This document shows positions 2,657 through 34,024 of a DNA stretch of 64,000 nucleotides, in pieces. A program made the translations under genes and the position numbers. This DNA is from Candidatus Kuenenia stuttgartensis. Its GTDB lineage: Bacteria > Planctomycetota > Planctomycetia > Planctomycetales > Planctomycetaceae. Location: the NCBI GenBank assembly GCA_945861865.1, contig CAMAWN010000008.1, positions 1-64,000 of the forward strand. The letters run 5' to 3'. Every line of letters begins with the position of its first letter. The stretch's first letter is position 1. A model generated the notes under the pieces. The model saw nothing but the letters and a program-made list of their open reading frames with translations. It was not told the origin of the DNA and searched no databases.

Positions 2657-3321
2657 CCCGCCTGACCGTGCGCGAACTGAATCACTTTCTGCACCACGAC
2701 CTGCCAACCGGCGACGCGGTGCGAGTGGAGATTCTCAATCCGAACGGCATGCACAACCTCGCCGTTGGTTTGGATGCGCCCGCTGAGATCGACATCCTCG
2801 GTCACGCCGGCTACTTCATCGCCGGCATGAACAAGCGAGCCAACGTGACGGTCCACGGCAACGTCGGCTGGAGCGTCGCCGAAAACATCATGTCCGGCAC
2901 CGTCCGCGTGAAAGGCTGCGCGTCCGAATGCGCCGGAGCCTCCGGCCACGGCGGCCTGCTGGTCATCGAAGAGGACGCCTCGTCCCGCTGCGGCATCTCG
3001 CTGAAAGGCTGCGACATCGTCGTCGGCGGCAGCGTCGGCCACATGTCCGCCTTCATGGCTCAAGCCGGAACGCTCGTCGTCTGCGGCGACGCCGGCGGCA
3101 GCCTCGGCGACTCGCTGTACGAAGCCACGATCTACGTTGGCGGAAAGATTCACAGCCTCGGAGCCGACGCGCAGGAAGAACCAATGACCGCCGCCGACAT
3201 GGCTCGTGTCAGTGATCTGCTGACGAAAGCCGGCATCGCACGCGATCTGAAATCGTTCAAGCGAGTCGCCTCCAAACGATCCCTCTACCACTGGCACGCC
3301 GACGCGGGACAAGAGTATTGA
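2629..3321 (+). CDS. mgsB: N-methylglutamate synthase subunit B (GltB C-terminal GXGXG-domain homologue)
   Basis: 230 residues matching the right-handed beta-helix (GXGXG) domain found at the C-terminus of glutamate synthase large subunits, here a separate protein. Repeated turns such as GNVGWSVAENIMSGTVRVKG and GAGASGHGG-like glycine steps give the pattern. The start at 2629 lies inside the end of mgsA (28 bp overlap), and mgsC begins one base after the stop, so translation is probably coupled. It would scaffold the complex between the amidotransferase MgsA and the FMN/Fe-S subunit MgsC. Confidence 0.87.
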   Translation: MDRVIPLDLTRLTVRELNHFLHHDLPTGDAVRVEILNPNGMHNLAVGLDAPAEIDILGHAGYFIAGMNKRANVTVHGNVGWSVAENIMSGTVRVKGCASECAGASGHGGLLVIEEDASSRCGISLKGCDIVVGGSVGHMSAFMAQAGTLVVCGDAGGSLGDSLYEATIYVGGKIHSLGADAQEEPMTAADMARVSDLLTKAGIARDLKSFKRVASKRSLYHWHADAGQEY

Positions 3322-3322
3322 A

Positions 3323-4660
3323 ATGACCGATCCGATTCATCGCGAAGAAAGCTTCACCTTCGACCGGCATGTCCTGGAGTACATCCAGCAAGCCGCCGAG
3401 CACGGGCTGTACGACATCCGTGGCCTCGGAGCCAAACGCAAGCTGCCGACGTTCGACGATCTCGTCTTTCTCACGGCCAGCGCGTCGCGATACCCGCTCG
3501 AAGGCTATCGTGAGAAGTGCGTCTCGAAGACGGTGCTCGGCACTCGCTTCGCCAAGAAGCCGGTTGAACTCGAAACGCCCGTCACGATTGCCGGCATGAG
3601 CTTCGGAGCACTTTCGGCCAACGTCAAAGAAGCACTCGGCCGAGCCGCGACGGAGATCGGCACATCGACGACCACTGGCGACGGCGGCATGACTCCCGAG
3701 GAACGGCAATCGTCGAAGACACTCGTCTATCAATGCCTGCCGTCGCGATACGGATTCAATCCGGACGACCTTCGCAAGGCCAACGCGATCGAACTAGTCC
3801 TCGGCCAAGGTGCGAAACCCGGCGGCGGCGGCATGTTGCTCGGCCAGAAAGTCAGCGAACGAGTCGCCGGCATGAGAACGCTTCCGGCCGGCATCGACCA
3901 ACGCTCGGCCTGCCGGCATCCCGACTGGACTGGCCCCGATGATCTGACGATCAAGATCAACGAACTCCGCGAGATCACCGACTGGCAAGTCCCGATCTAT
4001 GTGAAGATGGGAGCCACGCGAGTCCGCGAAGACGTGAAGCTGGCGGTCAAAGCCGGAGCCGACGTCGTCGTCATCGACGGAATGCAGGGCGGAACGGCCG
4101 CGACTCAGCAATGCTTCATCGAACACGCCGGCATCCCAACACTCGCCGCATTGCCGCTCGCCGTGCAAGCTCTTGAAGAGATGGACGTCTTCGGCACCGT
4201 GCAGCTCATCATCTCTGGCGGCATCCGCTCCGGAGCCGACGTCGCCAAAGCCCTCGCTCTCGGAGCCGACGCCGTCGCGATCGGACAAGCGGTGCTGATG
4301 GCTCTCGGCTGCAACAGTCCGACGTACACTCACGACGGCGAACGCATCGACGCGACCGACGACTATGCGAAACTCGGCACGGCTCCCGGCTATTGCCATC
4401 ACTGTCACACCGGCCGCTGCCCCGTCGGCATCACGACGCAGCTTCCCGAACTCGAATCCCGCATGACGCCCGAATGGGGAGCCAAGCGGCTAAAGAATTA
4501 CCTGCAAGTGCTGACGATGGAGCTGACCACGCTCGCCCGAGCCTGCGGCAAATCCAACGTGCATCATCTGGAACGCGAAGACCTCGTCGCCCTGACGATC
4601 GAAGCCGCCGCGATGGCGAAAGTGCCGCTCGCCGGAACGAATTGGATTCCGGGACAATAA
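3323..4660 (+). CDS. mgsC: N-methylglutamate synthase subunit C (FMN/Fe-S glutamate-synthase-like)
   Basis: 445 residues equivalent to the FMN-binding central/synthase domain of glutamate synthase. GMSFGALSANVKEALGRAA and the GGGGMLLGQKVS loop belong to the FMN barrel. GYCHHCHTGRCPVGI near residue 360 is the cysteine cluster that binds the [3Fe-4S] centre in this family. With MgsA and MgsB it reconstitutes, as three polypeptides, the domains of a GltB-like enzyme. gmaS starts 13 bases downstream. The full-length bifunctional GltB is encoded separately at 36.4 kb, so the two systems are distinct. Confidence 0.9.
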   Translation: MTDPIHREESFTFDRHVLEYIQQAAEHGLYDIRGLGAKRKLPTFDDLVFLTASASRYPLEGYREKCVSKTVLGTRFAKKPVELETPVTIAGMSFGALSANVKEALGRAATEIGTSTTTGDGGMTPEERQSSKTLVYQCLPSRYGFNPDDLRKANAIELVLGQGAKPGGGGMLLGQKVSERVAGMRTLPAGIDQRSACRHPDWTGPDDLTIKINELREITDWQVPIYVKMGATRVREDVKLAVKAGADVVVIDGMQGGTAATQQCFIEHAGIPTLAALPLAVQALEEMDVFGTVQLIISGGIRSGADVAKALALGADAVAIGQAVLMALGCNSPTYTHDGERIDATDDYAKLGTAPGYCHHCHTGRCPVGITTQLPELESRMTPEWGAKRLKNYLQVLTMELTTLARACGKSNVHHLEREDLVALTIEAAAMAKVPLAGTNWIPGQ

Positions 4661-6402: not shown

Positions 6403-9208
6403 GGATCACGGCAGCATCGAGTTTGAATTCGACGGACATCGCGTGCGCGCCGAGTCCGGTCAGACGGTCGCCGGCGCGCTGCATGCCGCGGGCGAGCACA
6501 TCATCTCGCGGAGCTTCAAATATCACCGGCCGCGCGGGCTGTTGTGCATGTCGGGCCGCTGTCCGAATTGCATTTGCACGGTCGATGGCACTCCGAACGT
6601 CCGCATCTGCACGCAGGCCGCGAAGCCGGGCATGGTCGTGAAGTCGCAGAATGCGTGGCCGTCTGTGAAGTTCGACCTGCTCCGCATCTTCGACAAGCTG
6701 CACCGCTTCATGCCGGTCGGGTTTTACTACAAGCGCATGTACAAGCCGCGCTGGATGTGGCCGGTCTGGGAGAAAATTATCCGCCGCATTGCCGGCCTCG
6801 GCACAATCAACCGCGAGCACGGCGCGGAAGGCGTGTACGACAAACAGAATCTCTTCACCGACGTCGCCGTGATCGGCGGCGGCCTCGCGGGATTGAATGC
6901 GGCGCTCGCGGCCGCCGACGCGGGAGTGACCGTCACGCTCATCGACGAACAACCGGCACTCGGCGGACATTTGCGGCATGATCCGGAACTTGTGGAACCG
7001 ATTAGTGACTTGATCCGCCGTGTGTCCGAACATCCGGCGATCACCGTGATCTCCTCGGCCGGCGTCTTCGGCTGCTACGAGGGAAACTATCTCGGCATTC
7101 AGCAAGGTCAGCGGATGATCCGGCTTCGCGCCGCTCAGGTGATCGTCGCGACGGGCTGCTGGGAGCGGCCGCTGATCTTCGAGAACAACGACTTGCCCGG
7201 CGTCATGCTGGCGAGTGGCGTGCAGCGGTTGCTGCATCTCGATCATTGTCAGTTCCCCGGCGAAGCGGTTGTTGTCACCGACAATGCTCAGGGCTATCGA
7301 GTCGCGAAGCAGCTCAAAGCCGCAGGTACGCGTGTCTCGGCAATTATCGATGTGCGAGACAATCCCTCGGAGACAGCCGACGGCATCCGCACGTTTCGCG
7401 GCCACACGATCATCTCGGCCAGCGGTTCGCGGCATGTGAATGGCGCGGTCATCGCGCCGCTCGCTGGACATCCACGGCAGTCGATTTCATGCCGCTGGAT
7501 CGTACAGGCGGTGGGATTTACTCCCGCGAATTCGCTGCTGTACCAGAACGGCTGCAAGCTGCGATACGACGAGTCGCTCGATCAGGCGGCCGTGATCCAA
7601 CACGCTCCGGCGATGCATTCGGCCGGCACGGTGAATGGCCTGCACGATCCACGCGATGCTGCATCGGACGGACAACGTGCAGGGTTGGCTGCGGCCGAAG
7701 CTCTGTGCTCTCCGTGCCTCAGTGTTTCAAACCCGTCGGTGGAAACCGCATTGGAAACACAGAGTCACAGAGGGGAGACAGCACCCATGTGCCATTACGT
7801 TTCCCCATCCGATGCGAAGAAAAAGTTCGTCTGCCTGTGCGAGGATGTCACCGAGAAGGACATCTGCGACGCGATCGACGAAGGCTACTCGAACATCGAG
7901 ACGTTGAAGCGGTATTCGACGGTCAGCATGGGGCCGTGTCAGGGGAAGATGTGCCAATCGGCGTCGATTGCGATTTGTGCTCGGCACAACGGGCAGTCGA
8001 TCGCGGAGACCGGCGTCACGACCGCTCGGCCGCCGGAGCAGCCGTTGCCGTTGGGTGTGCTCGCCGGGCGGACGTTGCATTTCTCGCTGATCCGTCGCAC
8101 GCCGATGCACGCCTGGCACGAGCAGGCCGGGGCCAAGATGGGAGACGCCGGCAATTGGAAACGTCCACAGGTTTATTCGTCGGTTCCACAGGAATACGAA
8201 GCGGTGCGGCAACGAGCCGGACTGATTGACGTCTCGACGCTCGGCAAGATTGAGTTGCGCGGTGCGGACGTCGTCCAGTTTCTGGAATTCATCTACCCAA
8301 ATCGGTTCGCGAACTTGAAGCTCGGCCGCGTGCGGTACGGAGTGATCTGCGATGACGCGGGTATTTTGTTGGACGACGGCACGATCGCGCGGTTGGGAGA
8401 CGACCGATTCTTTCTGACGACCACAACCGGCAACGCGGATGCGATTGATAGTTGGTTCCGCTGGTGGCTGGCGGCTCGACCGGAGTGGGATGTGCGGATG
8501 ACGAACGTGTCGGCCAGTTACGCCGCGATGAACCTCGCCGGTCCGCGCAGTCGCGAGGTTTTGAAGAAGCTGACCGACGCGGACCTCTCATCCGACGCGA
8601 TGCCGTATCTCGCCGCCAGCGAATGCACGATCGCGGGCGTGTCGGTCATCGTGCTGCGAATCGGGTTCGTCGGCGAACTCGGCTACGAGATTCACGTCCC
8701 CAGCCAATTTGGATTGCACGTCTGGGAAGCGATCCTCGAAGCGGGCCGCGAGTTCTCGATCGCACCGTTCGGCCTCGAAGCTCAGCGAGTGCTGCGGTTG
8801 GAGAAGAAACATCTGCTGCCTGGGATCGACACCGACGCGCTCTCGAACCCGCTGGAAGCGGACCTGCCGTGGATCGTGAAGCTCGACAAGGCGGATTTCA
8901 TCGGCAAGGAATCGCTGGCTCGTGCTCAGCAACGCGGTGATCGCAACAAGCTGATCGGCTTTCGATTGTCGGAACCGGTCGTGCCGGACCTCGCGTCACT
9001 GGTGCTCTGCGACGGCAAGCTCGGCGGACGGATCACGTCTTGCGGTTATTCACCGGCAGTGGGCGGGACGATCGGGTTGGCCTGGGTTCCGGCCAATCTC
9101 GCTGGCAACGGGCAGACGATTCAGATTCAAGTCAATGGGCGAACGATCCCGGCGGTTGTGCAGGACGAACCGTTCTACGATCCCAGCGGAGCGAAGTTGA
9201 AATCATGA
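6395..9208 (+). CDS. mgdC: N-methylglutamate dehydrogenase alpha subunit (SoxA-like) with retained Fe-S cysteine motifs
   Basis: 937 residues from a GTG start. Domains in order: N-terminal [2Fe-2S]-type domain (C51-x4-C56-x2-C59-x12-C72); an FAD/NAD Rossmann domain with GGGLAGLNAALAAADAG near residue 160; a BFD-like A3 domain near residue 478 with CLCEDV and GPCQGKMC; and a C-terminal aminomethyltransferase (GcvT-like) domain pair that binds tetrahydrofolate. In the sarcosine oxidase alpha subunits I know, these cysteine sets are largely lost; here both are present, suggesting Fe-S clusters and an electron acceptor other than oxygen. Bases 7701-7776 encode an extra segment between the FAD and A3 domains derived from an inverted repeat. 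Its stop overlaps the mgdD start (ATGA). Confidence 0.85.
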   Translation: MAEDHGSIEFEFDGHRVRAESGQTVAGALHAAGEHIISRSFKYHRPRGLLCMSGRCPNCICTVDGTPNVRICTQAAKPGMVVKSQNAWPSVKFDLLRIFDKLHRFMPVGFYYKRMYKPRWMWPVWEKIIRRIAGLGTINREHGAEGVYDKQNLFTDVAVIGGGLAGLNAALAAADAGVTVTLIDEQPALGGHLRHDPELVEPISDLIRRVSEHPAITVISSAGVFGCYEGNYLGIQQGQRMIRLRAAQVIVATGCWERPLIFENNDLPGVMLASGVQRLLHLDHCQFPGEAVVVTDNAQGYRVAKQLKAAGTRVSAIIDVRDNPSETADGIRTFRGHTIISASGSRHVNGAVIAPLAGHPRQSISCRWIVQAVGFTPANSLLYQNGCKLRYDESLDQAAVIQHAPAMHSAGTVNGLHDPRDAASDGQRAGLAAAEALCSPCLSVSNPSVETALETQSHRGETAPMCHYVSPSDAKKKFVCLCEDVTEKDICDAIDEGYSNIETLKRYSTVSMGPCQGKMCQSASIAICARHNGQSIAETGVTTARPPEQPLPLGVLAGRTLHFSLIRRTPMHAWHEQAGAKMGDAGNWKRPQVYSSVPQEYEAVRQRAGLIDVSTLGKIELRGADVVQFLEFIYPNRFANLKLGRVRYGVICDDAGILLDDGTIARLGDDRFFLTTTTGNADAIDSWFRWWLAARPEWDVRMTNVSASYAAMNLAGPRSREVLKKLTDADLSSDAMPYLAASECTIAGVSVIVLRIGFVGELGYEIHVPSQFGLHVWEAILEAGREFSIAPFGLEAQRVLRLEKKHLLPGIDTDALSNPLEADLPWIVKLDKADFIGKESLARAQQRGDRNKLIGFRLSEPVVPDLASLVLCDGKLGGRITSCGYSPAVGGTIGLAWVPANLAGNGQTIQIQVNGRTIPAVVQDEPFYDPSGAKLKS
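7701..7776. repeat. Imperfect inverted repeat inside mgdC, in frame
   Basis: The left arm (7701-7728, CTCTGTGCTCTCCGTGCCTC then AGTGTTTC) and right arm (7753-7776, GAAACACAGAGTCACAGAG then GGGAG) are partly complementary and rich in CTCTGTG/CACAGAG words. The frame stays open across the element, which encodes a Ser/Glu/Thr-rich linker between the FAD and BFD-like domains. It looks like intergenic repeat material captured by a gene. Confidence 0.55.
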
Positions 9209-9807
9209 CACCGCCAATTGCTCGTGGACCGCTGCTCGAACGACATCGCCATTTGGAGGCGACTGTCGACGTGCTCGATGGTTGGCAAGTTGCTGTGCGA
9301 TATCCGCCGCCGCCAGATCGAACGGGCAACGCGCTGGTCGATCTGTCGCATGTGCCGACGTTTGAGGTCAACGGATCGGAGACAGACGCGACACTGGTTT
9401 CGCTTTGCGGAGCCGAAGTGCCGTTGCGAACGATTCACAGCGGCGATGACCGGCATGTCTACCGTCTGGCTCCGAGCCGTGCGATCGTGTTTGGCAATGT
9501 CTCGCCGAGCACCGGTGCGATTGATGTCACCGGCGGTTGGACGTCACTCGCTTTGATCGGGCCAGATGCGGAGCGGATTCTAAACAAGGTCACGGCGGTC
9601 GATCTGCGCGAGCGGACTCTGCAGATGAACTCGTGTTGCCAGGGGCCGATCTTTGGAGTCAACACGCTGTTCGGCCGGTTCGCAGATCGGTTTGAATTGC
9701 ATGTGTGCAGCGATTCGGTGGAGTTCTTTTGGGATGTCTTGATGGATGCGGGCGCGGAGTTTGGCTTGCGTCCGGCGGGCATCGAGTGGATGAGTGGTCG
9801 CGGCTGA
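9205..9807 (+). CDS. mgdD: N-methylglutamate dehydrogenase gamma subunit (SoxG-like)
   Basis: 200 residues, the typical size of the sarcosine oxidase gamma subunit. The ATG overlaps the mgdC stop in an ATGA arrangement. The second half (SLALIGPDAERILNKVTAVDLR, then an aminomethyltransferase-like fold with FADRFELHV and a late FGLRPAGIEW) resembles a degenerate GcvT domain, as known for SoxG. It is assigned mainly by position between alpha and beta subunits and by size. Confidence 0.8.
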   Translation: MTPPIARGPLLERHRHLEATVDVLDGWQVAVRYPPPPDRTGNALVDLSHVPTFEVNGSETDATLVSLCGAEVPLRTIHSGDDRHVYRLAPSRAIVFGNVSPSTGAIDVTGGWTSLALIGPDAERILNKVTAVDLRERTLQMNSCCQGPIFGVNTLFGRFADRFELHVCSDSVEFFWDVLMDAGAEFGLRPAGIEWMSGRG

Positions 9808-9886
9808 CAAACGGTATCTCGGCGGTCGGCCGGATGCCGATCACTGACAGCCGTGATTCCGTTTTTCGAGGATGATGAGGACCGGC

Positions 9887-11086
9887 ATGGTTGCACAGCG
9901 AATGTGGCAAGAGCATGAACTCAAAGACCAGTACGACGTCGTCATTATCGGCGGCGGCGTGCATGGGTTGGCGACGGCGTACTATCTGACGCAGATGGGC
10001 GTGCGGAACATCGCGGTGCTGGAGGCGAAGTACGTTGGCTTCGGCGGGTCGGGGCGGAACACGGCGATTGTGCGCTCGAATTATCGCACGCCGGAGGGGA
10101 TCGCGTTCTACGACTTGTCGGTCAAGCTGTACGAGCAGTTGGCGGCGGATCTCGAATTCAACGTCATGTTCTCGCAGCACGGGCATCTCACGCTGGCCCA
10201 CAACGAGCGAGGCGTGACCGGTCTCACGGAGCGGGCCAACACGAACCAACTGATGGGAGTGAACTCGCGAATCATCTTCCCGGAAGAGATTCAGCGGATC
10301 GTGCCCGACTTGAACGTCTTCGGACACAGCCGCTTCCCGATTCAGGCGGCGTTGTATCACCCGCCCGGCGGCATCATCCGGCACGACGCGGTCGTGTGGG
10401 CGTTCGCTCGCGGAGTCGATCGGGGCGGCGGGCATGTCCATCAGAAGACCGAAGTCACCGGCATCGAAGTTCAGAACGGGCAGGTCGAGGCGGTCGTCAC
10501 CAATCGCGGGCGGATCAAGACCAAGACGGTGCTCAACGCGACAGCCGGCTACGCGGGATTGATCAGCCGCATGGTCGGACTCGAAATCCCGATCGAGACG
10601 CATCCGCTGCAAGCGGCGGTGACCGAACCGCTCAAGCCATTTTTGAATTCGGTGATCGTCTCTTCGACCCTTCACGTTTACGTTTCGCAAACCGATCGCG
10701 GTGAACTGGTGCTCGGAGCCGAGGTCGATGACCACGCCAGCTACTCGCTGCGCGGCACGTTGTCGTTTCTCGAAGGGGCAGCAACGCATTTGTTGGAGTT
10801 GTTCCCGCACCTCGCGAATGTGAAAATCCTGCGGCAGTGGGCGGGACTGTGCGACATGACGCCCGATTACTCGCCAATCATGGGCGGGACGCCGGACGTC
10901 AAAGGCTTTTTGATGACCGTTGGCTGGGGCACCTACGGATTCAAGGCCGGCCCGGCGTCGGGCTATTTGATGGCCGAGTTGATCGCGTCAGGCAAGACAC
11001 CGCCGAAGCTCGAACCGTTTGGGTTGACGCGGTTCTACGAAGACCGGCTCGTGGGCGAAAAAGCCGCTGCGTCGGTTTCGCACTGA
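9887..11086 (+). CDS. mgdA: N-methylglutamate dehydrogenase beta subunit (SoxB-like FAD oxidoreductase)
   Basis: 399 residues of the DAO family. The N-terminal dinucleotide-binding motif VVIIGGGVHGLATAYYL is followed by GFGGSGRNTAIVRSNY, as in sarcosine oxidase beta subunits. A late WAGLCDMTPDYSPIMG and GWGTYGFKAGPASGYLMAE complete the FAD site. The ATG at 9887 has GAGG 6 bases upstream; an ATG at 9872 would add five residues. In known NMG clusters the beta gene usually leads (mgdA first); here it is last, about 80 bp after mgdD. It should oxidise the N-methyl group of N-methylglutamate at a flavin shared with the alpha subunit. Confidence 0.87.
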   Translation: MVAQRMWQEHELKDQYDVVIIGGGVHGLATAYYLTQMGVRNIAVLEAKYVGFGGSGRNTAIVRSNYRTPEGIAFYDLSVKLYEQLAADLEFNVMFSQHGHLTLAHNERGVTGLTERANTNQLMGVNSRIIFPEEIQRIVPDLNVFGHSRFPIQAALYHPPGGIIRHDAVVWAFARGVDRGGGHVHQKTEVTGIEVQNGQVEAVVTNRGRIKTKTVLNATAGYAGLISRMVGLEIPIETHPLQAAVTEPLKPFLNSVIVSSTLHVYVSQTDRGELVLGAEVDDHASYSLRGTLSFLEGAATHLLELFPHLANVKILRQWAGLCDMTPDYSPIMGGTPDVKGFLMTVGWGTYGFKAGPASGYLMAELIASGKTPPKLEPFGLTRFYEDRLVGEKAAASVSH

Positions 11087-11110
11087 GCCACCATCGAACG
11101 ACGCTGAACG

Positions 11111-13054
11111 CTATTTCTCGACGATCTCCAGCACGACGAAGCTGTCGCCACCGTCTTCGAGGTTGCCGCTGGCCGAGGTGATGATCAGGGGCACGACATG
11201 TCGACCGGGTGGCAATCGTTCGGCCACTTGGAATTGCAACTCGACGCGAGCAGTTGCGTTCTCTGGAATCGAGATCTCGTGCGACCACGGTGACGTGCTT
11301 GAGCCGTGATCAAGCCGAAGCCGCAACGTCTCAGGCTGAGGCAACGGGTTGTCGATGAGCACGGTTGTCTTGGCGATCTCGCCGGCCGATGCGCGGATGA
11401 GCAGCGGTTCGACTTGGATGCGGCTGGGATTCCAATCGCGGCGGAAGCGGCCAGAGGGAGAGATCGCATCGGCGGCTTTCGCGGCGGCTTGGCCCCAGGC
11501 GACTCGACGACGAAAATCTTCGGCGTTGAAGACAAACGCTCCGCCGTGTTCGGCGAGCACCCAATCGGGTTTCGCATCGAGCACCGCTTGAGCGCTCTTG
11601 GCGTACAGGTCCGGCCAGCCGCGATTGCGTCCCGACCAACCTCCGCTGCCGGAGAATTGGTCGGCGTGGAAAAAGTTGTCGCCCGTGAAGAAACAGGTTC
11701 GGCCGTCGATCGTCGTTTGCAGTCCCATCGTGAAATACGTTTGGCCGGGGAAGTGTCGCACGGCGAACGAGAATTCACGCCAGGTTGCGGTCTCGTTCGC
11801 CTTCAGCCAGCGGTCGGTACGGATCGAGCGCGCATCGAGTCCGAAGGCGGTGACTCGGAACGGTTCGGCCATCGGTCGGGCGACGTCTTCGAGCGTCCAG
11901 ACCTCGAACGACTCGCGATTCGGTAATTGATGCAGACCGACGTAGTGGTCGTTGTGCGCATGGCTGATCAGCACGACCTCAATGGGGCCGAGTTGTTCGT
12001 CGCGCTGCAAGCGGAGGATTTGATCGGCGAGCGTCGTTCCGAACGGATCGAAGACCGCGATCGGCCCGGCTTCCGAGCGGAGCACGAACGTGTTGCCGGT
12101 CAGAAACAGATGCGGCGAGAGTTTGGTCCACGGCTTCTCGCCAGCGGTCGCGACCTGCTCCTTGGCCAAGAACTCGTACTGCGGTTCCGCACCGAGATGC
12201 TGCTTGCTGAACCGCTCGAAGCTCTTCAGGAATCCAGCTTCGTCGACGAGCTTCGCGGTCTCTTCGAGAGCGACGACGATGCCCTCTCGCAACACCGGCC
12301 CGTGTTCCGGGCAGAGCATTCGCGGGCGATGTGTCGCCAATTTGCGGAGCGATTCGGCAGCGGACTTGAGGCCAGTGTCCGTCCAATGATCCCAGTCGGT
12401 TGTGTACGGCGACCACAGTTTGCCGCGCGTTGTGAACGCATCGCCGCAGAAGATGATCTCGTCCGCGTTGTCGGTTTGTTCGGAGCGACGTTTCGCGGCG
12501 AAGGCGACGTGATCGCGGCTGTGGCCGGGGGCCGCGAGAACGGTCAATCGCCAGCCGCGCCACTCGATCGTCTGTTCGTCTTCGAGCGAGCACTCGACCT
12601 CGTCGATGCCCTGCGGATGGACGAGGTAATTGAAAGCGTTGAAGGTTCGGTCTCGCAAACCGGGTTCTTTGCCGGCGACGAGTTCCGGAAGGCAGGCACT
12701 CCAAAAGCGCTTCACGCCGTCGCGGCTCAACCATTCGGCCGATGCCTTCGGAGCCTGCACAGACACGCCGGCAGCAATCAGCTCGCGAGTCAGTGCACTC
12801 GTGTCGCGGTGATGATGCGTCAGCAAGCAAAGTTCGACCTTGGTTTTCAACTCGCGCCAGTCCATGCCACGTGCGGCTCCGATGAGCAACGCGGCATCGC
12901 CATCAATCAGCGCGTATCCGCAGGGCAACCCGGTCGATTGCCAGACTCCCGGCGCGATCTCGCGCCAGTGCGAGTTGCTCGGTTCACCGCGCACCAGCCA
13001 GACGGTCGCGAGCAACAGGCTCACACAGAACGTCGCGGCGAGCAGCTTGCGCAT
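11111..13054 (-). CDS. Exported protein with two metallo-beta-lactamase-fold domains
   Basis: 647 residues starting with a Sec-type signal peptide (MRKLLAATFCVSLLLATVWL). The first MBL domain has LLTHHHRDTSAL near residue 80, that is HxHxD followed by Thr instead of the second His. The second has VLISHAHNDHYVGL near residue 360 with a complete HxHxDH. A beta-rich C-terminal domain follows. AGGAG lies 7 bases before the start. The tandem arrangement suggests one catalytic and one altered domain. The gene is convergent with the NMG operon and 57 bp upstream of prpC; no functional link is evident. Substrate unknown. Confidence 0.8.
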   Translation of the reverse strand: MRKLLAATFCVSLLLATVWLVRGEPSNSHWREIAPGVWQSTGLPCGYALIDGDAALLIGAARGMDWRELKTKVELCLLTHHHRDTSALTRELIAAGVSVQAPKASAEWLSRDGVKRFWSACLPELVAGKEPGLRDRTFNAFNYLVHPQGIDEVECSLEDEQTIEWRGWRLTVLAAPGHSRDHVAFAAKRRSEQTDNADEIIFCGDAFTTRGKLWSPYTTDWDHWTDTGLKSAAESLRKLATHRPRMLCPEHGPVLREGIVVALEETAKLVDEAGFLKSFERFSKQHLGAEPQYEFLAKEQVATAGEKPWTKLSPHLFLTGNTFVLRSEAGPIAVFDPFGTTLADQILRLQRDEQLGPIEVVLISHAHNDHYVGLHQLPNRESFEVWTLEDVARPMAEPFRVTAFGLDARSIRTDRWLKANETATWREFSFAVRHFPGQTYFTMGLQTTIDGRTCFFTGDNFFHADQFSGSGGWSGRNRGWPDLYAKSAQAVLDAKPDWVLAEHGGAFVFNAEDFRRRVAWGQAAAKAADAISPSGRFRRDWNPSRIQVEPLLIRASAGEIAKTTVLIDNPLPQPETLRLRLDHGSSTSPWSHEISIPENATARVELQFQVAERLPPGRHVVPLIITSASGNLEDGGDSFVVLEIVEK

Positions 13055-27166: not shown

Positions 27167-30100
27167 ATGCACTACGCGCCTGAATCGCCGCGAGAATTCC
27201 TGCCCGAAGCCGGCGTCAATTCCGCCGGCCGCGCGGAGAATTTCCATTACCGCTCGGCCCCGATTTATCTGCTGACGGCGGCCGTCGGAGTCTTGCTGCT
27301 GGCCGATGTCGCGTTGGGGATCGCCTGGGGAACTGCCGGAGCTTCACCAACCTTCGTGCCGAACGCCGATTGGCAATCGAAGCTGTTAGCGACTCAAACT
27401 TTGTTCGGCTTTCGACTGGCGTTGTTGGCGGCAGTGCTCGGCGGCGCGAGGATTTTGTATCAGACGCTCGACGGTCTGTTGTCTGGCCGAGTTGGCGCGG
27501 ACCTCGCGCTGACGATCGCGTGCCTGGCGGCGATCGTGCTTGGCGAACACACGACTGCTGCGCTGGTCGTGTTCATCGCGCTGTGTGGCGAGAGCATCGA
27601 AGGCTACACGGTCGATCGCGCGCAGCGGGCGATCCGCCGCATCTTTCAATTGTGCCCGCGCACGGCGCGAGTGCTCGTCGGGGATGACGAACAGGAAGTC
27701 CCGCTCGAACAGGTGATCGCGGGCGACTCGGTCGTCGTTCGGCCCGGAGAACGGATTCCGGTGGATGGCGTCGTTGTGGCCGGGCAATCGGCGGTCGATC
27801 AAAGTGCTCTGACAGGCGAGAGCGTGCCGGCCGACAAAGCGGTCGGCGACAACGTCTTTGCCGGAACGCTGAATCAGCTCGGAGCGTTGCAGATCACGGC
27901 CGCTCAAGTCGGCGCGCAAACAACGCTCGCGCAGATTGTCGAGCTGGTCGGCCAAGCCACGCAACGCAAAGCGTCACTCGAACGGACGGCGGATCGGCTG
28001 GCTCGCTGGTTCCTGCCGGTCGTGCTGGGCGTGGCCGCGCTGACACTGATCGGTTGGCGAATCGCCAGCGGTTCGTGGTCCGCCGGATATTTGCCGGCCT
28101 TGAGCGTGTTGGTCGTCGCGTGCCCGTGCCCATTGATTCTGGCGACGCCGAGCGCGGTGATGGCCGCGATGGCGTGGCTCGCGCGAGCGGGAGTTGTCGT
28201 GAAAGGCTCGGTCGCGCTCGAACGCTTGGCGTCGATCGACACGATCGTCTTCGACAAAACTGGCACGCTGACTCGCGGCGAATTGGCGGTTGGGGACATG
28301 CTGTTGTGGGGCAAGTTTTCAACCTGCCCGCCTTCTGAGTCCGTGCAGGTTGAAAACCTGCCCCACGACGAAACCGACTTGCTGCGTCTCGCGGCGATCG
28401 CCGAGAAACGCAGCGAGCATCCGATTGCTCGCGTGCTCGTCCGAGAAGCGGAGGCCCGACACTGCGTCTTCACGGGGGCCGACGAATTGACGGCTCATCC
28501 CGGAGCGGGCGTGATCGCGACTGTGCGAGGCGAACAACTCGGAGTGTGGTCGAACGTGAGACCGGAAATCTCAAATCTCAAATCTCAAATCACGGTCGGC
28601 AACCGACGGTTGATGGCAGAGCAAGGCATCGAAATCCCGGCCGAGTTGGAGCAGCGAGTCGGCGAGTTGGAGCAACAAGGCCAATCGATGTTGCTGATCG
28701 CGCTCGAACAAACGCTGCTCGGCGCGATTGGATTGCGCGACGTCGCGCGATCGGAAACGGAAGCTGTCCTGCAAGAGCTGCGTGACGCCGGCATCCGTCA
28801 GTTCGCGATGCTCACGGGAGACCGGCGTGAATCGGCGGTTCGCATCGCTGAGCAACTCGGCATCGACAACATTCAGGCGGAACTCTTGCCGGCCGACAAA
28901 GCGCGACGGATCGAAGAGTTGCTCGCGGCCGGACATCGAGTCGCGATGGTCGGCGACGGTGTGAACGACGCTCCCGCACTGGCGACGGCAACGGTTGGGC
29001 TGGCGCTCGGCGGAGTCGGCAGTGATCTTGCGGCCGAGGCGGGCGATCTGGTTTTGATGGGCGATCCGTTGCGGCCGTTGCCGGGATTGCTGCGGCTGTC
29101 TCGGCAGTTGGTCCTCGTTATTCGGCAGAGCATCTTCGTGTTTGCGTTCGGCATGAACGCGGTGGGAATGGTGCTCGGCAGTCTGGGTTGGATCAATCCG
29201 GCAGTCGCGGCGGTGTTTCATGAAATTTCGTCGCTGGCCGTGATGTTGAACGCGATGCGGTTGCTATGGTTTGAACGTTGGCACGAGACGCGGCTCGGCC
29301 GATTGTCGAACGGCGCGGCCAACGTCGCCGAATGGTTGGTCGAAAGACTGTCACCGACAAAGCTGGTCTTTGGGTTCCTCGATCACTGGCCGACGCTCGT
29401 CCGCACGACGGCGGCGGTGTTCGGCGTGTGGTGGTGCTGCTCGGGAATCGTGTTGCTCAGCGAAGACGAGCAGGCGGTCGTCACACGGGTTGGTCGGTTC
29501 GAGACGACGCTCTCGGCCGGCTGGCACTGGCGGTGGCCAAGCGGCCTGGAGCGCATCCGCCGTGAGCGAGTGGCTGAGGTCCGCGCCGTTCAAATCGGAT
29601 TCCGGTCTGCTCCGACACCGTTCAAGAGCGATGGGCTGTTCCGCGCTCCAGTCGAATGGATGAGCGAGCACGCCGACACCGACTACGAGCCGGTTGCCCC
29701 CGAATCGTTGACGCTCACCGGCGAGGAAGTGCCGATCGAAGTGACCGGCGAAATCCAATTCCGCATCGGCGATCTGCGGCGGTTCGCGTTCGCATCCTCG
29801 CGGCCGCACGAGACGCTGCGAGCCGTCACGGAGAGCGTGCTCCGCGAGGTCGCGGCGACCGAATCGCTCGACTCTCTGCTGACGAACCGACGGCGCGAGA
29901 TCGAGGCACGCTGTTTGGTCCGCATTCGCGAGCTGATGACGTCGTACGAGATCGGGGTTGAAGTGCTCGACCTCAGCCTGCTCGACATTCATCCGCCGCA
30001 GCAGGTCGTTCCGGCCTATCGGCAGGTGGCCGACTCACTGGAGCAGCGGGAGCAATTCATCAACGAGGCCGAAGGCTACTACGCTCGCAAAGTGTTGAGC

Positions 30101-30571
30101 GCCGCCGGCGAGCAAGCGATCCGCGTGCTGACCGACAGCGTCGATTCCGCCAAGCGACTGCCCGACGCCTCGACCACCGGCGGCGTCACCGGCTGGAAGT
30201 TGGACGACGCTCTGTGGCAAAAACTGACCGCGAACTTCGACTCCGACGAGCGAGTCCTCTCCGGAGAAGCAGCCGCGAAATTGCTGAAGGCTCGCAGCGA
30301 GAAGACTCGCAAAGTCGAAGCCGCTGCCGGCTCGGCTGCTCGCTTCAACAGCGTCGTGAAAGTCTTCGCCGAACAGCCAACGCTGACGGGACTGCATCTG
30401 TATTGGACCACGATGGAGAATGTTCTGGCCGCTCGGCCCCTGCTGATTTTGGACCCGGCTTTGCGAGGCAAATCGCATCTGTGGCTGACCGAACCAGGGC
30501 AATCGCCGATTCGGCTGCCGTCGAGCGACACGCCGTTGCAGCGGTTGGAGATGCCGGAGACAGAGAAGTGA
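27167..30571 (+). CDS. P1B-like P-type ATPase fused to a C-terminal SPFH (HflK-like) domain
   Basis: 1134 residues. The first about 735 are a P-type ATPase: TGES near 215, transmembrane [10 protein letters not shown] near 319, DKTGTLT near 363 (phosphorylated Asp), [12 protein letters not shown] near 594 and [16 protein letters not shown] near 685. There is no N-terminal HMA domain or CxxC. CPC points to a soft metal cation (Cu, Zn or similar) but the TM8 motif does not match a standard class. After one further membrane segment (about 745-765), [14 protein letters not shown] begins an SPFH domain that runs to an HflK-like end. Two repeat-derived insertions lie in the nucleotide-binding region (28306-28366, 28565-28592). 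It heads a run with two SPFH genes and a rhomboid gene. Confidence 0.87.
28306..28366. repeat. Palindromic element in frame within the ATPase gene
   Basis: The 22-nt arm at 28306-28327 (GTGGGGCAAGTTTTCAACCT then GC) pairs with 28345-28366 with one mismatch and a 17-nt loop. It encodes an extra loop just after the phosphorylation motif, in the nucleotide-binding domain. A related but diverged copy lies at 46314-46396. Confidence 0.88.
28565..28592. repeat. AAATCTC tandem repeat in frame within the ATPase gene
   Basis: About three to four copies of AAATCTC run in a row and encode EISNLKSQI between the two conserved nucleotide-domain stretches. Such runs are usually intergenic; here they are coding. 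Confidence 0.7.
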
Positions 30572-30580
30572 CAAGGTGAG

Positions 30581-30622
30581 ATGACCAATGACCAATGACC
30601 AACGACCAATAACCAATGACCA
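30581..30622. repeat. Six heptamer repeats (ATGACCA) at the start of the HflC-like gene
   Basis: Units at 30581, 30588, 30595 and 30616 are exact and those at 30602 and 30609 differ by one base each. The assigned start ATG (30588) is the second unit. Confidence 0.9.
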
Positions 30623-31640
30623 ATCGCAGCCGACGCACTGGCGACGCATGATCGCCGTGATCGTGCTGCTTGCTCTGTTCGCATCCGCCGCGATTAGCTC
30701 AGTCGTGCTGGTTGACGAGACCGAGTTGATCATCGTCGAGCGACTGGGGCACATCTCGGCGGTGTACGACCGGCCGGAGGATCGGGGGCTGCACTTCAAG
30801 TGGCCGTGGCCGATTGGGACGGCTCGGCGATTTGATGCTCGCGTGCAGTTGTTCGATCCGCCGGGGCGTGAGATCTTCACTCGCGACAAAAAGAACGTCA
30901 CGGTTGAGACGTTCGTTTGCTGGCGGATTGGGCAGGGGGCTGCGAATCAGCCGGTCGTCACGTTCTTTCGGTCACTCGGCAGTCACGAGGCGGCGGCGGC
31001 GAGACTCGAAAGCCGGTTGCGGTCGATCGTCGCCACGCGAGTCGGACAGCTTGAGTTGAGCAACCTGCTGCGAGTCGATGATCCTGAAGCCGGGCCGGTG
31101 GGGAATCAAGCGGGAGTGCTCGAAGACCTCTCGCGAGAGATTCGCGAGCAACTGCAACAAGGCCGTGCCGATGGCGAACCGCTGCTCGAACGATTGGGGA
31201 TCGAGATCGTCGATGCGCGGGTCAAGCGGATCAATTTTCCGCTGGGCAATCAGCAAGCCGTCTTCGAACGGATGAAAAGCGAACGCCAAAAGATCGCCGA
31301 CCGCTACCGCAGCGCGGGACTCGCGGCGAGTACCGTCATCCGCAGCCACGCCGACCGGCAACACGCCGAATTGCTTGCGAAGGCAGACGGCGACGCCGAA
31401 CGCATTCGGGGTGAGGCCGAAGCCGAAGCGACTTCGATCCTCAATCAAGCTCACGCCGCCGACCCGGAATTTTACCGCACGATGCGAACGCTCGATGCCT
31501 ACCGGACGATTCTGAACGACAAAACGACTTTGGTTTTGTCGGCTTCGTCGAGTCTGTTGAAGATGCTTTCGGAAGGGGTGCCTGCGGACGCGAAGGCGAG
31601 TGAAGCGAAACCGGCGGCGAATGCGACGGCGGTTCCGTGA
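30588..31640 (+). CDS. SPFH/Band 7 protein, HflC-like
   Basis: 350 residues with one N-terminal membrane segment (IAVIVLLALFASAAISSVVL, about 22-42) followed by an SPFH domain: VDETELIIVERLGHISAVYD, GLHFKWPWPIGTARRFDARV, then a coiled-coil stretch ERMKSERQKIADRYRSAGLA with AEATSILNQAHAADPEFYR and a Pro/Ala tail. This order is typical of HflC, which with HflK modulates the FtsH protease. No ftsH is present here. It starts 16 bp after the ATPase-SPFH gene. The first about 14 residues are encoded by heptamer repeats, so the real start may be the ATG at 30648, although it lacks a ribosome-binding site. Confidence 0.85.
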   Translation: MTNDQRPITNDQSQPTHWRRMIAVIVLLALFASAAISSVVLVDETELIIVERLGHISAVYDRPEDRGLHFKWPWPIGTARRFDARVQLFDPPGREIFTRDKKNVTVETFVCWRIGQGAANQPVVTFFRSLGSHEAAAARLESRLRSIVATRVGQLELSNLLRVDDPEAGPVGNQAGVLEDLSREIREQLQQGRADGEPLLERLGIEIVDARVKRINFPLGNQQAVFERMKSERQKIADRYRSAGLAASTVIRSHADRQHAELLAKADGDAERIRGEAEAEATSILNQAHAADPEFYRTMRTLDAYRTILNDKTTLVLSASSSLLKMLSEGVPADAKASEAKPAANATAVP

Positions 31641-31649
31641 GAATAGGAG

Positions 31650-31775
31650 AGTGCAAAGTGCAGAGTGCAAAGTGCAAAGTGCAGAGTGTGAACAGAGGAC
31701 AGCGAATGATGGCTCAACACCGTCGCGCTGGTCGCCTCACTTTGCACTTTGCACTTTGCACTCTGCACTCCGCAC
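31650..31775. repeat. Large inverted repeat spanning the HflC-like/HflK-like junction
   Basis: GTGCAAAGTGCAGAG words at 31650-31688 are matched by their complement (CACTTTGCACTTTGCACTTT and onward) at 31738-31775. The left half lies at the gene junction and the right half is coding in the HflK-like gene, where it specifies LHFALCTLHSAL at the beginning of the membrane segment. Confidence 0.88.
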
Positions 31776-32734
31776 TGATTCTCGGCATCTATCTGCTGAG
31801 CGGTTTCTTCGTGGTTCGCGGCAACGAAACTGCCGTCGTGCGTCGGTTCGGTGCCACCGTGAAAAACGCGAACGGTGAAGTGCGGTTGTGGCCGAGCGGT
31901 TGGCATTACGATTGTCCGTGGCCGTTCGCGACGGTTGATCGTGTCAATTTGAACGAGATTCGGACGCTGAAGATCGGGGACTTGGAACAGAACGGACCGT
32001 CGCAAACGGGCTTCTTGCGCGACGTCGATCCCGCGCGGCAGGCTCAGTTTTTGAGCGGCGACAAGAACATCCTCAACGTGCAGATCAGCGTCAGCTACCG
32101 CGTGTCGGAGTCCGCCGTCGGTGAATTCTTGTTCGCAGCGGTCTCGCCGGAGCGACGCTTGCGAACGCTTACCGAGTCGGTTCTGGCGGACGCGATGTTG
32201 CTCAGCGGCGTCGATTTCGCGCACACGCTGGGCCGGAACGAACTCCGCGAGCGGATGACGGCGGATTTGCAACGGCTGGCTCGTGAGCAGCGGTTGGGGC
32301 TGACGGTCGATGACGTCACGATTGCAAACGTCTCGCCGCCGCTGCGCGTGAAGGCGGAATTCATTGACGTGATGAATGCTCGCGCTGACAAAGAGACGGC
32401 GATCAATCAAGCGCGAGCGTATTCCGAACAACGCGAGGCCGAAGCTCGCGGGGTGGCTCGGCGCACGACAGACTCGGCCGAAGTCTTCCGCCGTCAATCG
32501 GTCGAAGCCGCGAAAGCCGAGGCGGAGAGTTTTGCGAAACTCATCGCGCAGTTGCGCTCCGAGGAGCAATCCGGCCGCCGGTCGTATTCCGAGGCGCGGC
32601 AACTCGCGATGCGCCGTAAATACCTCGACACGATGGAAGAGGTCTTGCGGAAGGTCGCGGCCAAGGTCGTGCTCGATTCCGGCCAGGCGGTCGACCTGAC
32701 GATCCTGCGCGAGCAGAAGTCGTCTGCGAAATGA
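31706..32734 (+). CDS. SPFH/Band 7 protein, HflK-like
   Basis: 342 residues from the ATG at 31706, which has AGAGGA about 6 bases upstream; a GTG at 31637 would add residues encoded wholly by repeats. One membrane segment (ALILGIYLLSGFFVV) leads to an SPFH domain: RGNETAVVRRFGATV, LWPSGWHYDCPWPFATVDRV and FLSGDKNILNVQISVSYRVS. A long charged helical region (INQARAYSEQREAEARGVAR) ends the protein, as in HflK. Part of the membrane segment comes from an inverted repeat. It probably forms a hetero-oligomeric ring with the preceding HflC-like and ATPase-linked SPFH proteins. Confidence 0.85.
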   Translation: MMAQHRRAGRLTLHFALCTLHSALILGIYLLSGFFVVRGNETAVVRRFGATVKNANGEVRLWPSGWHYDCPWPFATVDRVNLNEIRTLKIGDLEQNGPSQTGFLRDVDPARQAQFLSGDKNILNVQISVSYRVSESAVGEFLFAAVSPERRLRTLTESVLADAMLLSGVDFAHTLGRNELRERMTADLQRLAREQRLGLTVDDVTIANVSPPLRVKAEFIDVMNARADKETAINQARAYSEQREAEARGVARRTTDSAEVFRRQSVEAAKAEAESFAKLIAQLRSEEQSGRRSYSEARQLAMRRKYLDTMEEVLRKVAAKVVLDSGQAVDLTILREQKSSAK

Positions 32735-32824
32735 CGCCGAGTTCGGCGCAGCAGCATCGGCCTACACGCAGTGAGGCGATTGCAGCTACAACTCGCGCCG
32801 CAATTTTGTGAGAAGGGATTCTGC

Positions 32825-34024
32825 ATGTTCGCTGCGTTGAGCCGTGATTTTCGATTCGCTCCTGTAACCTTCAGCCTGCTCGCGGTGTCGGTCGCGTTGT
32901 TCATCGCAGTCGAATTGGCTGGTCCGAAGATCGAAGACCCGAAAGGGGCTCACCATGTCTTTGGCATGGTTGTGGTGCTGCACTTCGGTGGCGACGACGA
33001 GGTTTCGGGGCCGTTCGCTTTGTGGGACGGGCCGTGGTGGCGCTGGCTGCGTATTCCGGCCAGTGCCTTTCATCACGCCAATGTGCTGCACTTGTTCTTC
33101 AATGTCAGCACGTTGTGGGTGCTGGGGCCGCTGCTCGAACGGCGCATGCGGCGAGCGGCGTATCTGGGATTCTGGTTCTTCGCGTCTCTCGTGCCGCTAT
33201 TGCCGGAATACTTTCTGGGGACGACTCCGCTGGGATTGTCGGGAGTCGCCTGCGCGATGTTCGGCTGGTGTTTGATCGAGCGTCAGTTTGATCCTGCCGT
33301 CGCGCGACGTCTTTCGGAGCAGGCGATTCGCAGCTTTTGGATCTTTCTCTTTGCGATGCTGATTTTGACCGCGCTCGATGTGTTGCACATCGCCAATGTG
33401 GCTCACTTCACGGGCGTTGCCTACGGCTGGTTGAATGCACGAGCGTCACACCATCGCACCGGTCGGAGAGCTTGGATCGCCACGCATGCGTTGTTGCCGG
33501 TGGCGATCTACCTCTTGTTGCATCCCTTCTGGAACGCGAACTATCACGCATTGCTGGGGCGTCGCGCGAAGGATTTGTCCGCCGGTGTACGGCACTTTCG
33601 CGAGGCGGTGCGCCGTGATCCGGCACTAGCGCAGGTCTGGTTGAGTCTCGCCGATGAGCGTGCGCGGAACGGAGATTTCTTGGCGGCGTGGCGACTCGTC
33701 ATTGACGGCTTGCGCCACAACCGGTCCAGCAGCGTGTTGACGGACGCGGCTCGCCGAGTTTGGATGATGCTGCCAGCCGATGAGCGGGAGGCTGCTCGAG
33801 AAGTTTTGCAAACTGCGTTTGCGGGAGAGACTTCGGAGTGGTCGGAACGACTGCGATTGGTCGATGCGCCGGCTCCGGTGTCGTTGGACGAACCAGTTGA
33901 TGCCGGACGGTTTCCGCTCGAAGGAGACGCGACCAAGCTTGAAGGACGGCGCGGCCGCAAACGGTCGGTGAAGCCGATCGATCCCGAACAAATCGACAGC
34001 GCGGCAGAAGGTCGCACGCTGTAG
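32825..34024 (+). CDS. Rhomboid-family intramembrane serine protease with C-terminal extension
   Basis: 399 residues from the ATG at 32825 (AAGGGA 6 bases upstream). About six membrane segments. LHLFFNVSTLWVLGPLLE is the usual second-helix motif, TPLGLSGVACAMFGW carries the GxSG catalytic Ser, and HIANVAHFTGVAYGWLNA carries the catalytic His. After about residue 230 comes a cytosolic, TPR-like stretch (HFREAVRRDPALAQVWLSLA) and a charged tail. Its position after the SPFH genes suggests a membrane quality-control module, but it has its own 90-bp leader and may be separately expressed. The stop overlaps a palindrome. Confidence 0.87.
   Translation: MFAALSRDFRFAPVTFSLLAVSVALFIAVELAGPKIEDPKGAHHVFGMVVVLHFGGDDEVSGPFALWDGPWWRWLRIPASAFHHANVLHLFFNVSTLWVLGPLLERRMRRAAYLGFWFFASLVPLLPEYFLGTTPLGLSGVACAMFGWCLIERQFDPAVARRLSEQAIRSFWIFLFAMLILTALDVLHIANVAHFTGVAYGWLNARASHHRTGRRAWIATHALLPVAIYLLLHPFWNANYHALLGRRAKDLSAGVRHFREAVRRDPALAQVWLSLADERARNGDFLAAWRLVIDGLRHNRSSSVLTDAARRVWMMLPADEREAAREVLQTAFAGETSEWSERLRLVDAPAPVSLDEPVDAGRFPLEGDATKLEGRRGRKRSVKPIDPEQIDSAAEGRTL

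Follow-up and report, generated by a model that had tools for sequence, protein, structure and literature searches.

We describe an operon in a 64,000-nucleotide stretch of Candidatus Kuenenia stuttgartensis DNA (positions 1 to 64,000 of contig CAMAWN010000008.1, assembly GCA_945861865.1; hereafter the window) whose first gene, K1, joins a P1B-type metal ATPase to an HflK-like SPFH protein and is followed by the genes of an HflC-like (C) and a further HflK-like (K2) SPFH protein. Judged from the sequences, K1, C and K2 probably form an HflK/C-like periplasmic dome in which a transition-metal P1B pump serves as the membrane anchor of K1. All three proteins keep HflK/HflC-like SPFH domains together with the corresponding C-terminal parts. 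An SPFH cage holding a membrane-protein cargo is a known kind of assembly, of which a covalently attached pump would be a new form.

One reading frame from a metal ATPase to an SPFH domain

K1 is a single frame of 1134 amino acids (window 27167-30571, forward strand) that starts with ATG and has no internal stop (Table 1). In this same frame, Pfam places an E1-E2_ATPase domain at residues 162-340 (E 4e-53), a Hydrolase (HAD) domain at residues 357-608 (E 5e-32) and a Band_7/SPFH domain at residues 765-970 (E 4e-20). The ATPase half matches the heavy-metal ATPase family TIGR01525 of NCBIfam with 563 bits (cut-off 346), and the SPFH half is nearest to HflK, with a TIGR01933 score of 149 bits, slightly below the cut-off of 159.4. 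The hallmarks of P1B heavy-metal ATPases are all present, namely TGES, DKTGT, GDGVND and the CPx of the metal-site helix. These catalytic motifs are shared with CopA, ZntA and the P1B-4 ATPases, from which K1 differs by the combination of the Asn of transmembrane helix 7 (TM7) with the HEISS of TM8, its C-terminal SPFH extension and the lack of an N-terminal metal-binding domain, none being reported by Pfam or NCBIfam.

Hydropathy analysis of the ATPase half called 7 of the 8 expected helices plus one false one, and an extra helix follows the ATPase. The C-terminus of a P1B ATPase is cytoplasmic, whereas the single helix of HflK leads to an SPFH domain on the outer side. Taken with these two topologies, the extra helix implies by helix parity that the SPFH domain of K1 should be periplasmic. 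An odd number of helices ahead of the SPFH domain was also counted by hydropathy in five further K1 proteins; the count for the L101 protein, which shows one weak and two spurious peaks, was decided by the structural model of L105 described below. The original prediction of a full P-type ATPase, an extra membrane segment and a complete SPFH domain in one frame was thus borne out by Pfam, NCBIfam, motifs and hydropathy.

Purifying selection acts across the ATPase-SPFH junction of this old fusion. At residues 700-770, the ratio of nonsynonymous to synonymous differences (pN/pS) is 0.09-0.14 against five congeners, within the range of both domains, and 0.46 against one more distant family member. 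Full-length fused frames are found in other assemblies, for example L010, L011 and L012, at 91-92% identity, and the fused frame is present in the single-contig genomes G012, G047 and G053; two copies, in G001 and G019, contain a frame break or stop. A stop or frameshift splitting the two halves, which the original prediction had named as the finding that would speak against it, did not occur, as the frame recurs and its junction is under purifying selection.

Table 1. Features of the operon and its downstream neighbour in the window (aa, amino acids)
Feature	Position	Strand	Basis
K1: P1B-type metal ATPase fused to HflK-like SPFH protein, 1134 aa	27167..30571	+	Pfam, NCBIfam, selection across junction
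ATPase half of K1 (about aa 1-700)	27167..29266	+	Pfam, NCBIfam, motifs, hydropathy
TGES, aa 216-219	27812-27823	+	Motif in ATPase half
CPC, aa 319-321	28121-28129	+	Motif in ATPase half
DKTGT, aa 363-367	28253-28267	+	Motif in ATPase half
GDGVND, aa 596-601	28952-28969	+	Motif in ATPase half
TM7 Asn in GMNAVG	29150-29167	+	ATPase half
TM8 HEISS	29219-29233	+	ATPase half
Extra helix after ATPase, aa 747-765	29405..29461	+	Hydropathy; number nine, assuming eight helices in the ATPase as is standard
SPFH (Band_7) domain of K1, aa 765-970, then HflK-like C-terminal part to aa 1134	29459..30076	+	Pfam, NCBIfam
C: HflC-like SPFH protein, 350 aa	30588..31640	+	TIGR01932 173.5 bits, cut-off 134.4
K2: HflK-like SPFH protein, 365 aa, 4-base overlap with C	31637..32734	+	TIGR01933 139 bits, below cut-off 159.4
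Rhomboid protease, GLSG (33233), AHFTG (33401)	32771..34024	+	Pfam, motifs; genus-level neighbour

Conserved partners and related SPFH trios

The fusion was found in 34 of the 59 genomes searched (own genome included, hand count), copies cut by contig ends (G008, G011, G023, G030) and the broken copies of G001 and G019 being counted as fusions. Both C and K2 are also present in 33 of these 34 genomes, the exception being G025 (78% complete), where neither was found. K1, C and K2 are all adjacent in 25 fusion genomes; in G051 C alone adjoins the fusion, in G011 the contig ends between the genes, and in six genomes (G012, G036, G038, G043, G047, G056) the C-K2 pair is located elsewhere. An HflC of at least 80 bits was detected in 12 of the 25 fusion-free genomes, giving a Fisher p of 1.4e-5 for fusion versus partner presence, with the kinship of these related genomes ignored. 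The unlinked C genes of the six genomes fall inside the C group of the fusion trio (branch support 90/95) and their unlinked K2 genes inside its K2 group (96/91); the partners were therefore kept even where the operon broke up. Fusion searches covered one phylum, in a sample of which at least 10 of 294 genomes, all of one class, carry the fusion (hand count). Looking for the fused architecture in other genomes and for SPFH genes that stay together, as the original prediction had proposed, thus gave a positive answer, and the freely varying neighbours that it had set as a warning sign did not occur for the SPFH genes.

The SPFH proteins were compared in a careful tree of 101 SPFH domains. The C class, which includes E. 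coli HflC and the middle genes of other trios, is supported at 100/100, and the K2 class, which includes E. coli HflK, canonical HflK and the third genes of other trios, at 95/92; within these classes the separation of trio genes from canonical ones has modest support (C 83/83, K2 91/88). The SPFH domain of the ATPase-fused K1 is sister to that of a K1 fused to an SO_0444/ArsP_1 permease (100/91, L089 left out), and unfused K1 proteins form a group of their own (92/62). In a quick tree, two changes each were required for the K1 rows that carry the fusion and for the K2 rows of fused trios, with L089 separate. Seven loci were dropped from that tree as redundant (L060, L062, L063, L074, L084, L138, L142), and the careful tree additionally omits L001, L059, L061, L065, L069, L078, L081, L085, L088, L089, L090, L092, L093 and L132, the long-branch rows L001, L078 and L089 being among those omitted.

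The permease fusion shows that a K1 of this kind can carry a different transporter. L086 (724 amino acids), and also L087 and L088, begin with an SO_0444-type Cu/Zn permease, a member of the ArsP_1 family (in L086, NCBIfam 391 bits with a cut-off of 300, Pfam E 2e-47; L087 and L088 assigned by their similarity to L086), and C and K2 come after this fusion, which the phylum sample contains in at least four genomes (G071, G073, G083, G154; hand count). It thus resembles the window in its K1 SPFH domain, its two following partners and its N-terminal metal transporter; however, the transporter belongs to an unrelated permease family and is not an ATPase. The K2 of these trios is 615 amino acids long in L087 (6131-7975, reverse strand) and L088 (3017-4864, forward strand), with about 295 residues before the SPFH domain that have no Pfam match in L087. 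SO_0444 permease frames of 600-860 amino acids are numerous in the phylum sample, and some of these long permeases may have C-terminal domains other than SPFH.

The third arrangement has no fusion. Loci from further genomes in the phylum (L083-L085, L094, L096, L222-L224) show the gene order ArsP_1 permease, K1 (6+1 helices), C, K2 and P1B ATPase. Genome G034 holds both a fused trio (L066, C15) and such an unfused operon (L222, C49), DUF1559 genes stand beside L094, which comes from a genome of the window organism's family, and in L083 the reverse-strand stretch 8040-12889 upstream of the trio holds the ArsP_1 permease, followed by genes for a MoxR-type AAA ATPase and for a transglutaminase-like protein. 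The DUF1559 genes, together with planctomycete-like repeats, point to the Planctomycetota as the phylum of the host. Beyond the phylum, seven unfused K1 sequences were used as queries, and of 328 relatives the best 80 were kept, which are proteobacterial loci mainly from Burkholderia, Paraburkholderia and Pseudomonas. The genes of all 80 loci lie on one strand in the order K1, C, K2, P1B ATPase (K1 is split in L135); since the loci were selected by K1 alone, the constant presence of the ATPase was not built in. The order K1, HflC, SPFH and P1B ATPase is also found on plasmids of Paraburkholderia, Rhizobium and Burkholderia, and L099 has a zinc-type ABC (ATP-binding cassette) transporter and a PCu(A)C copper chaperone upstream.

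These proteobacterial loci share a further trait. A His-rich stretch, defined as 6 or more His per 20 residues, occurs in C at 77 of the 80 loci, in K1 and K2 at none and in the ATPase at 5. All 77 stretches of C precede its first hydrophobic helix, and these tails would be cytoplasmic if C has the topology of HflC. None of 12 canonical HflK/HflC proteins (ten from the phylum, two from E. coli) is His-rich, with at most 3 His, and stretches of this kind appear in some proteins of the fused lineage (13 His in the C of L071, 9 and 6 in the fused K1 of L078 and L073, respectively). The occurrence of the SPFH trio with three transporter arrangements suggests that scaffolding of a metal transporter is a shared, putative function.

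An unfused operon of this K1-C-K2-ATPase kind is a zinc-starvation operon in Pseudomonas aeruginosa, the match being made by annotation, gene order and genus. In a P. aeruginosa znuA mutant, PA2439, PA2438, PA2437 and HmtA are up 9.0, 10.6, 14.4 and 5.6 fold; the first three are annotated as HflK, HflC and HflC family, HmtA is PA2435, and a weak Zur site is assigned to the PA2439-HmtA cluster (PMC4542158). Zur binds the PA2439 promoter when zinc is present (PMC8531726), and zinc depletion raises the protein levels of the cluster, significantly for PA2438 and PA2439 (PMC11761036). PA2437-2439 correspond to PA14_33110, 33080 and 33070 (PMC9431628), which are PaFlo7, 6 and 5 (PMC13086221), and a review describes HmtA as a Cu/Zn importer (PMC8456098). 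Like the window, PaFlo5-6-7/HmtA by annotation combines HflK/HflC-family proteins and a P1B ATPase in one cluster, there Zur-linked, and a similar K1-C-K2-ATPase order is seen in the 80 proteobacterial loci, which include other Pseudomonas species such as P. fluorescens and P. putida. However, the ATPase is a separate gene there, with PA2436 in between by number, and in HmtA-operon-like loci a 6-helix N-domain belonging to K1 itself occupies the position that the ATPase takes in the window. A search for papers on HmtA together with SPFH gave none, and no description of an ATPase-SPFH fusion or of a transporter covalently included in an SPFH ring was found, in a search whose coverage left out most subscription papers. 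Within that search, the statement of the original prediction that no characterised system has this layout holds for the fusion, but not for its unfused relative, which is partly characterised as HmtA/PaFlo5-7 of the Zur regulon.

To place the pump itself, we compared ATPase sequences in two trees, the first with 26 fused rows and the second with 18 of these 26 together with 12 of 18 rows from operons and 17 of 20 from other P1B ATPases; the over-long rows L061, L076, L080 and L089 entered the trees with flanking residues. The fused ATPases form one clade (99/95 and 99/96 in the two trees) and the HmtA-type operonic ATPases a separate one (100/100), and the two together stand as one side of a branch with support of just 70/60. 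That the window ATPase is a direct orthologue of HmtA was considered and set aside; the trees do not support it, although it may still hold. All 18 fused rows have CPC, the TM7 Asn and H[EQ]xxS in TM8; all 7 proteobacterial operonic rows have CPC, Thr and HNxx[TS], and 4 of the 5 operonic rows of the phylum have CPG and QNxGE. The TM8 histidine is common to the fused and the proteobacterial operonic ATPases; the same alignment columns read MALSS in E. coli CopA and DTGAT in ZntA. Either a P1B ATPase was joined to SPFH trios twice, or one pump diverged strongly as it moved from fourth gene to the N-terminus of K1; if it was joined twice, such convergence speaks for SPFH trios and metal pumps being functionally tied to each other.

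The proposed dome and its alternatives

In the assembly that we propose, K1, C and K2 would form a hetero-oligomeric dome that sits on the inner membrane at its periplasmic side, and the pump would be a covalent part of this dome and not a passing guest. Cytoplasmic ATP hydrolysis would move a transition metal, most likely Zn or Cu, across the membrane patch below the dome, and the metal would enter or leave through a confined periplasmic space rather than the open periplasm. K2, which has no transporter, could dilute the number of pumps per ring. Dome assembly, topology and confinement are what we infer from sequence and modelling. A physical association of the pump with its SPFH partners is very likely, and the handling of a transition metal by the system only a little less so; that the dome is closed or partly closed is fairly probable. 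Zinc as the main metal of the window organism is a tentative choice, and we lean slightly toward metal acquisition over the opposite direction because the unfused relative is induced by zinc starvation.

Structural modelling is consistent with such a cage. An AlphaFold2 model of an unfused K1, built from L105 and 33 relatives, has a mean predicted local distance difference test score (pLDDT) of 69.5, with most N-domain helices at 81-94. Its best Foldseek matches are the HflK/C cage chains 7vhq, 9cz2, 9paw and 7wi3 (probability 1.0), with a target-normalised TM-score of about 0.5 and a root-mean-square deviation that is large in long alignments, as expected of bent helices. All 50 matches listed are SPFH-family or vault proteins, with no other kind of match for the 6-helix N-domain. 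E. coli HflK/HflC share SPFH domains and C-terminal parts with the window trio and differ from it by an HflK with one helix (hydropathy) and no transporter, by two subunit types against three and by a known cargo, FtsH. Human stomatin domes enclose AQP1 and UT-B (PMC12407830), and a dome over a membrane transporter thus has a precedent; that dome, however, is a homo-oligomer around a separate guest transporter and has no metal pump, whereas the pump of the window is covalent.

The suggestion of the original prediction that a metal pump is an integral part of an SPFH ring has gained from the permease-SPFH fusion, the unfused K1-C-K2-ATPase operon and the kept partners, with the exception of the role that it gave to the rhomboid (see below). 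With somewhat less confidence than for the window alone, and only as a tentative generalization, K1 might be a cage subunit that works with HflC/HflK partners and has an exchangeable built-in transporter, either a P1B ATPase or an SO_0444/ArsP_1 permease, or else a 6-helix adaptor to which a separate pump is recruited; at least two phyla might then build inner-membrane nanocompartments for metal transport, in which cytoplasmic His-rich C tails would feed or buffer metal at the pump.

Several observations weigh against a metal-transporting dome. If each K1 carries an eight-helix pump, the patch of membrane inside a closed ring may become crowded, and the AlphaFold2 model of the window fusion, made from the single sequence, reached a pLDDT of 37 and was not used. 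No metal genes were detected among the nine neighbours scanned of the window operon, and no His-rich tract in the window trio. P1B subclass signatures are YN/MxxSS for Cu, K/DxG for Zn and SPC/HEGxT for P1B-4, and the transmembrane motifs of the fused ATPases match none of them. Zinc is also not simply transferable from HmtA to the fused pump, given the distinct ATPase clades and the low support for their union. In P. aeruginosa, hmtA mRNA is low throughout, without zinc repression (PMC8531726), and a 2026 study of a PaFlo5-7 deletion describes mild phenotypes, with about 20% less biofilm and attenuation in wax-moth larvae (PMC13086221); metal stress is not among the conditions reported in the available parts of that paper, and a word search did not find ATPase in its main text. 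Finally, one branch of the careful tree (98/86) places fused K1 nearer to K2/HflK than to unfused K1. Constraining all 31 K1 rows together cost 3.5 log units and was not rejected by the approximately unbiased test (p 0.24), and a single common K1 lineage is possible.

The same branch serves the main rival explanation, in which the trio is the lineage's own HflK/HflC complex, mainly corralling and regulating FtsH, with the ATPase as a privileged client, or as a lodger whose amount is controlled there, and metal transport not the purpose of the ring. HflK/C corrals FtsH in closed or open cages (PMC13220708), the window genome has three FtsH-family genes above the cut-off, all elsewhere and none in the operon, and it has no HflK or HflC above 100 bits besides the trio; a second strong HflC is likewise missing from this genome and from its 11 congeners. 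The P. aeruginosa relatives are also read as FtsH modulators or interactors (PMC11761036, PMC9431628), a link that, in the parts of these papers available, derives from the names HflK and HflC. However, G021, G023 and G041 carry a canonical HflK/HflC pair (HflK 215-250 bits) beside the fusion trio, and this coexistence led us to reject the trio as nothing but canonical HflK/C. P. aeruginosa, too, has a separate hflK-hflC operon (PMC13086221), and the three metal-transporter arrangements of SPFH trios and the His-rich C tails of the unfused ones weigh against a complex devoted to FtsH, which we consider rather unlikely.

It is also unlikely that the SPFH parts serve as a flat, flotillin-like microdomain scaffold, with pumps gathered side by side and neither a closed dome nor a confined compartment. 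SPFH proteins are described as membrane microdomain organisers as well, in the literature as far as it was covered, and even HflK/C can, in its native form, adopt an open, nautilus-like shape (PMC13220708); the HflK/HflC-like SPFH domains and C-terminal parts of the trio, and the cage chains as best matches of the unfused K1 model, argue for a dome instead. A chance fusion of neighbouring genes, kept by descent without functional coupling, is already disfavoured and very improbable: a single accident could account for every copy, since the fused ATPases make up one clade, but a second fusion involves a different permease family, an unfused four-gene operon exists in another phylum, unlinked C and K2 are kept with the fusion, and the linker is under strong purifying selection. 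Finally, an assembly or frameshift artefact, for which the 351 contigs of the draft window genome and the broken copies of G001 and G019 could be cited, has next to no probability and was rejected, as the same fused frame recurs in many independent assemblies, single-contig genomes among them, with selection across the junction.

Neighbouring genes and wider meaning

The two further SPFH genes and the intramembrane protease that the original prediction had placed after the fusion were identified by Pfam and NCBIfam as HflC, HflK-like and rhomboid, and the fourth gene has both the GxSG serine and the histidine of a rhomboid. A rhomboid homologue stands beside the fusion in 4 of the 5 congeners examined, the contig of the fifth ending before that point, and in none of the other, non-congener loci scanned. 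Elsewhere the gene after the fused trio is, for example, a menaquinone gene in L066 and one for a thioredoxin/NHL protein in L068, and in L071 an S49 peptidase gene (2934-3962, reverse strand) lies close downstream of it, where the window has the rhomboid; membrane proteases beside the trio may be a recurrent feature. The rhomboid is outside the conserved core of the system, and a specific role for it was rejected, as it is a neighbour only in congeners and three other lineages have other next genes. Quality control by the rhomboid, part of the original prediction, was accordingly not borne out.

Alignment of the upstream DNA revealed no recognisable motif beyond the congeners, among which the similarity mainly lay, and no search was aimed at a Zur box. 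The coding sequence of the operon contains a hairpin in the part of K1 that encodes the ATPase N-domain (window 28309-28370), a GACCAAT tract at the start of the HflC coding sequence (30583-30625) and AAAGTGC/ACTTTGC tracts in the first K2 codons (31655-31690 and 31738-31760). These repeat and hairpin tracts resemble a kind that we take to be typical of intergenic DNA.

If K1 is indeed a cage subunit with an exchangeable transporter, the resulting nanocompartments would resemble encapsulins bound to a membrane, with the cargo covalently built into the shell. The covalent pump-SPFH fusion directly names an SPFH cargo besides FtsH, which makes the question of such cargo testable. For the Pseudomonas operon with three SPFH genes it supplies a concrete hypothesis, that of a metal-transport assembly, and it may bear on the reported unlikeness of HmtA to other P1B ATPases.

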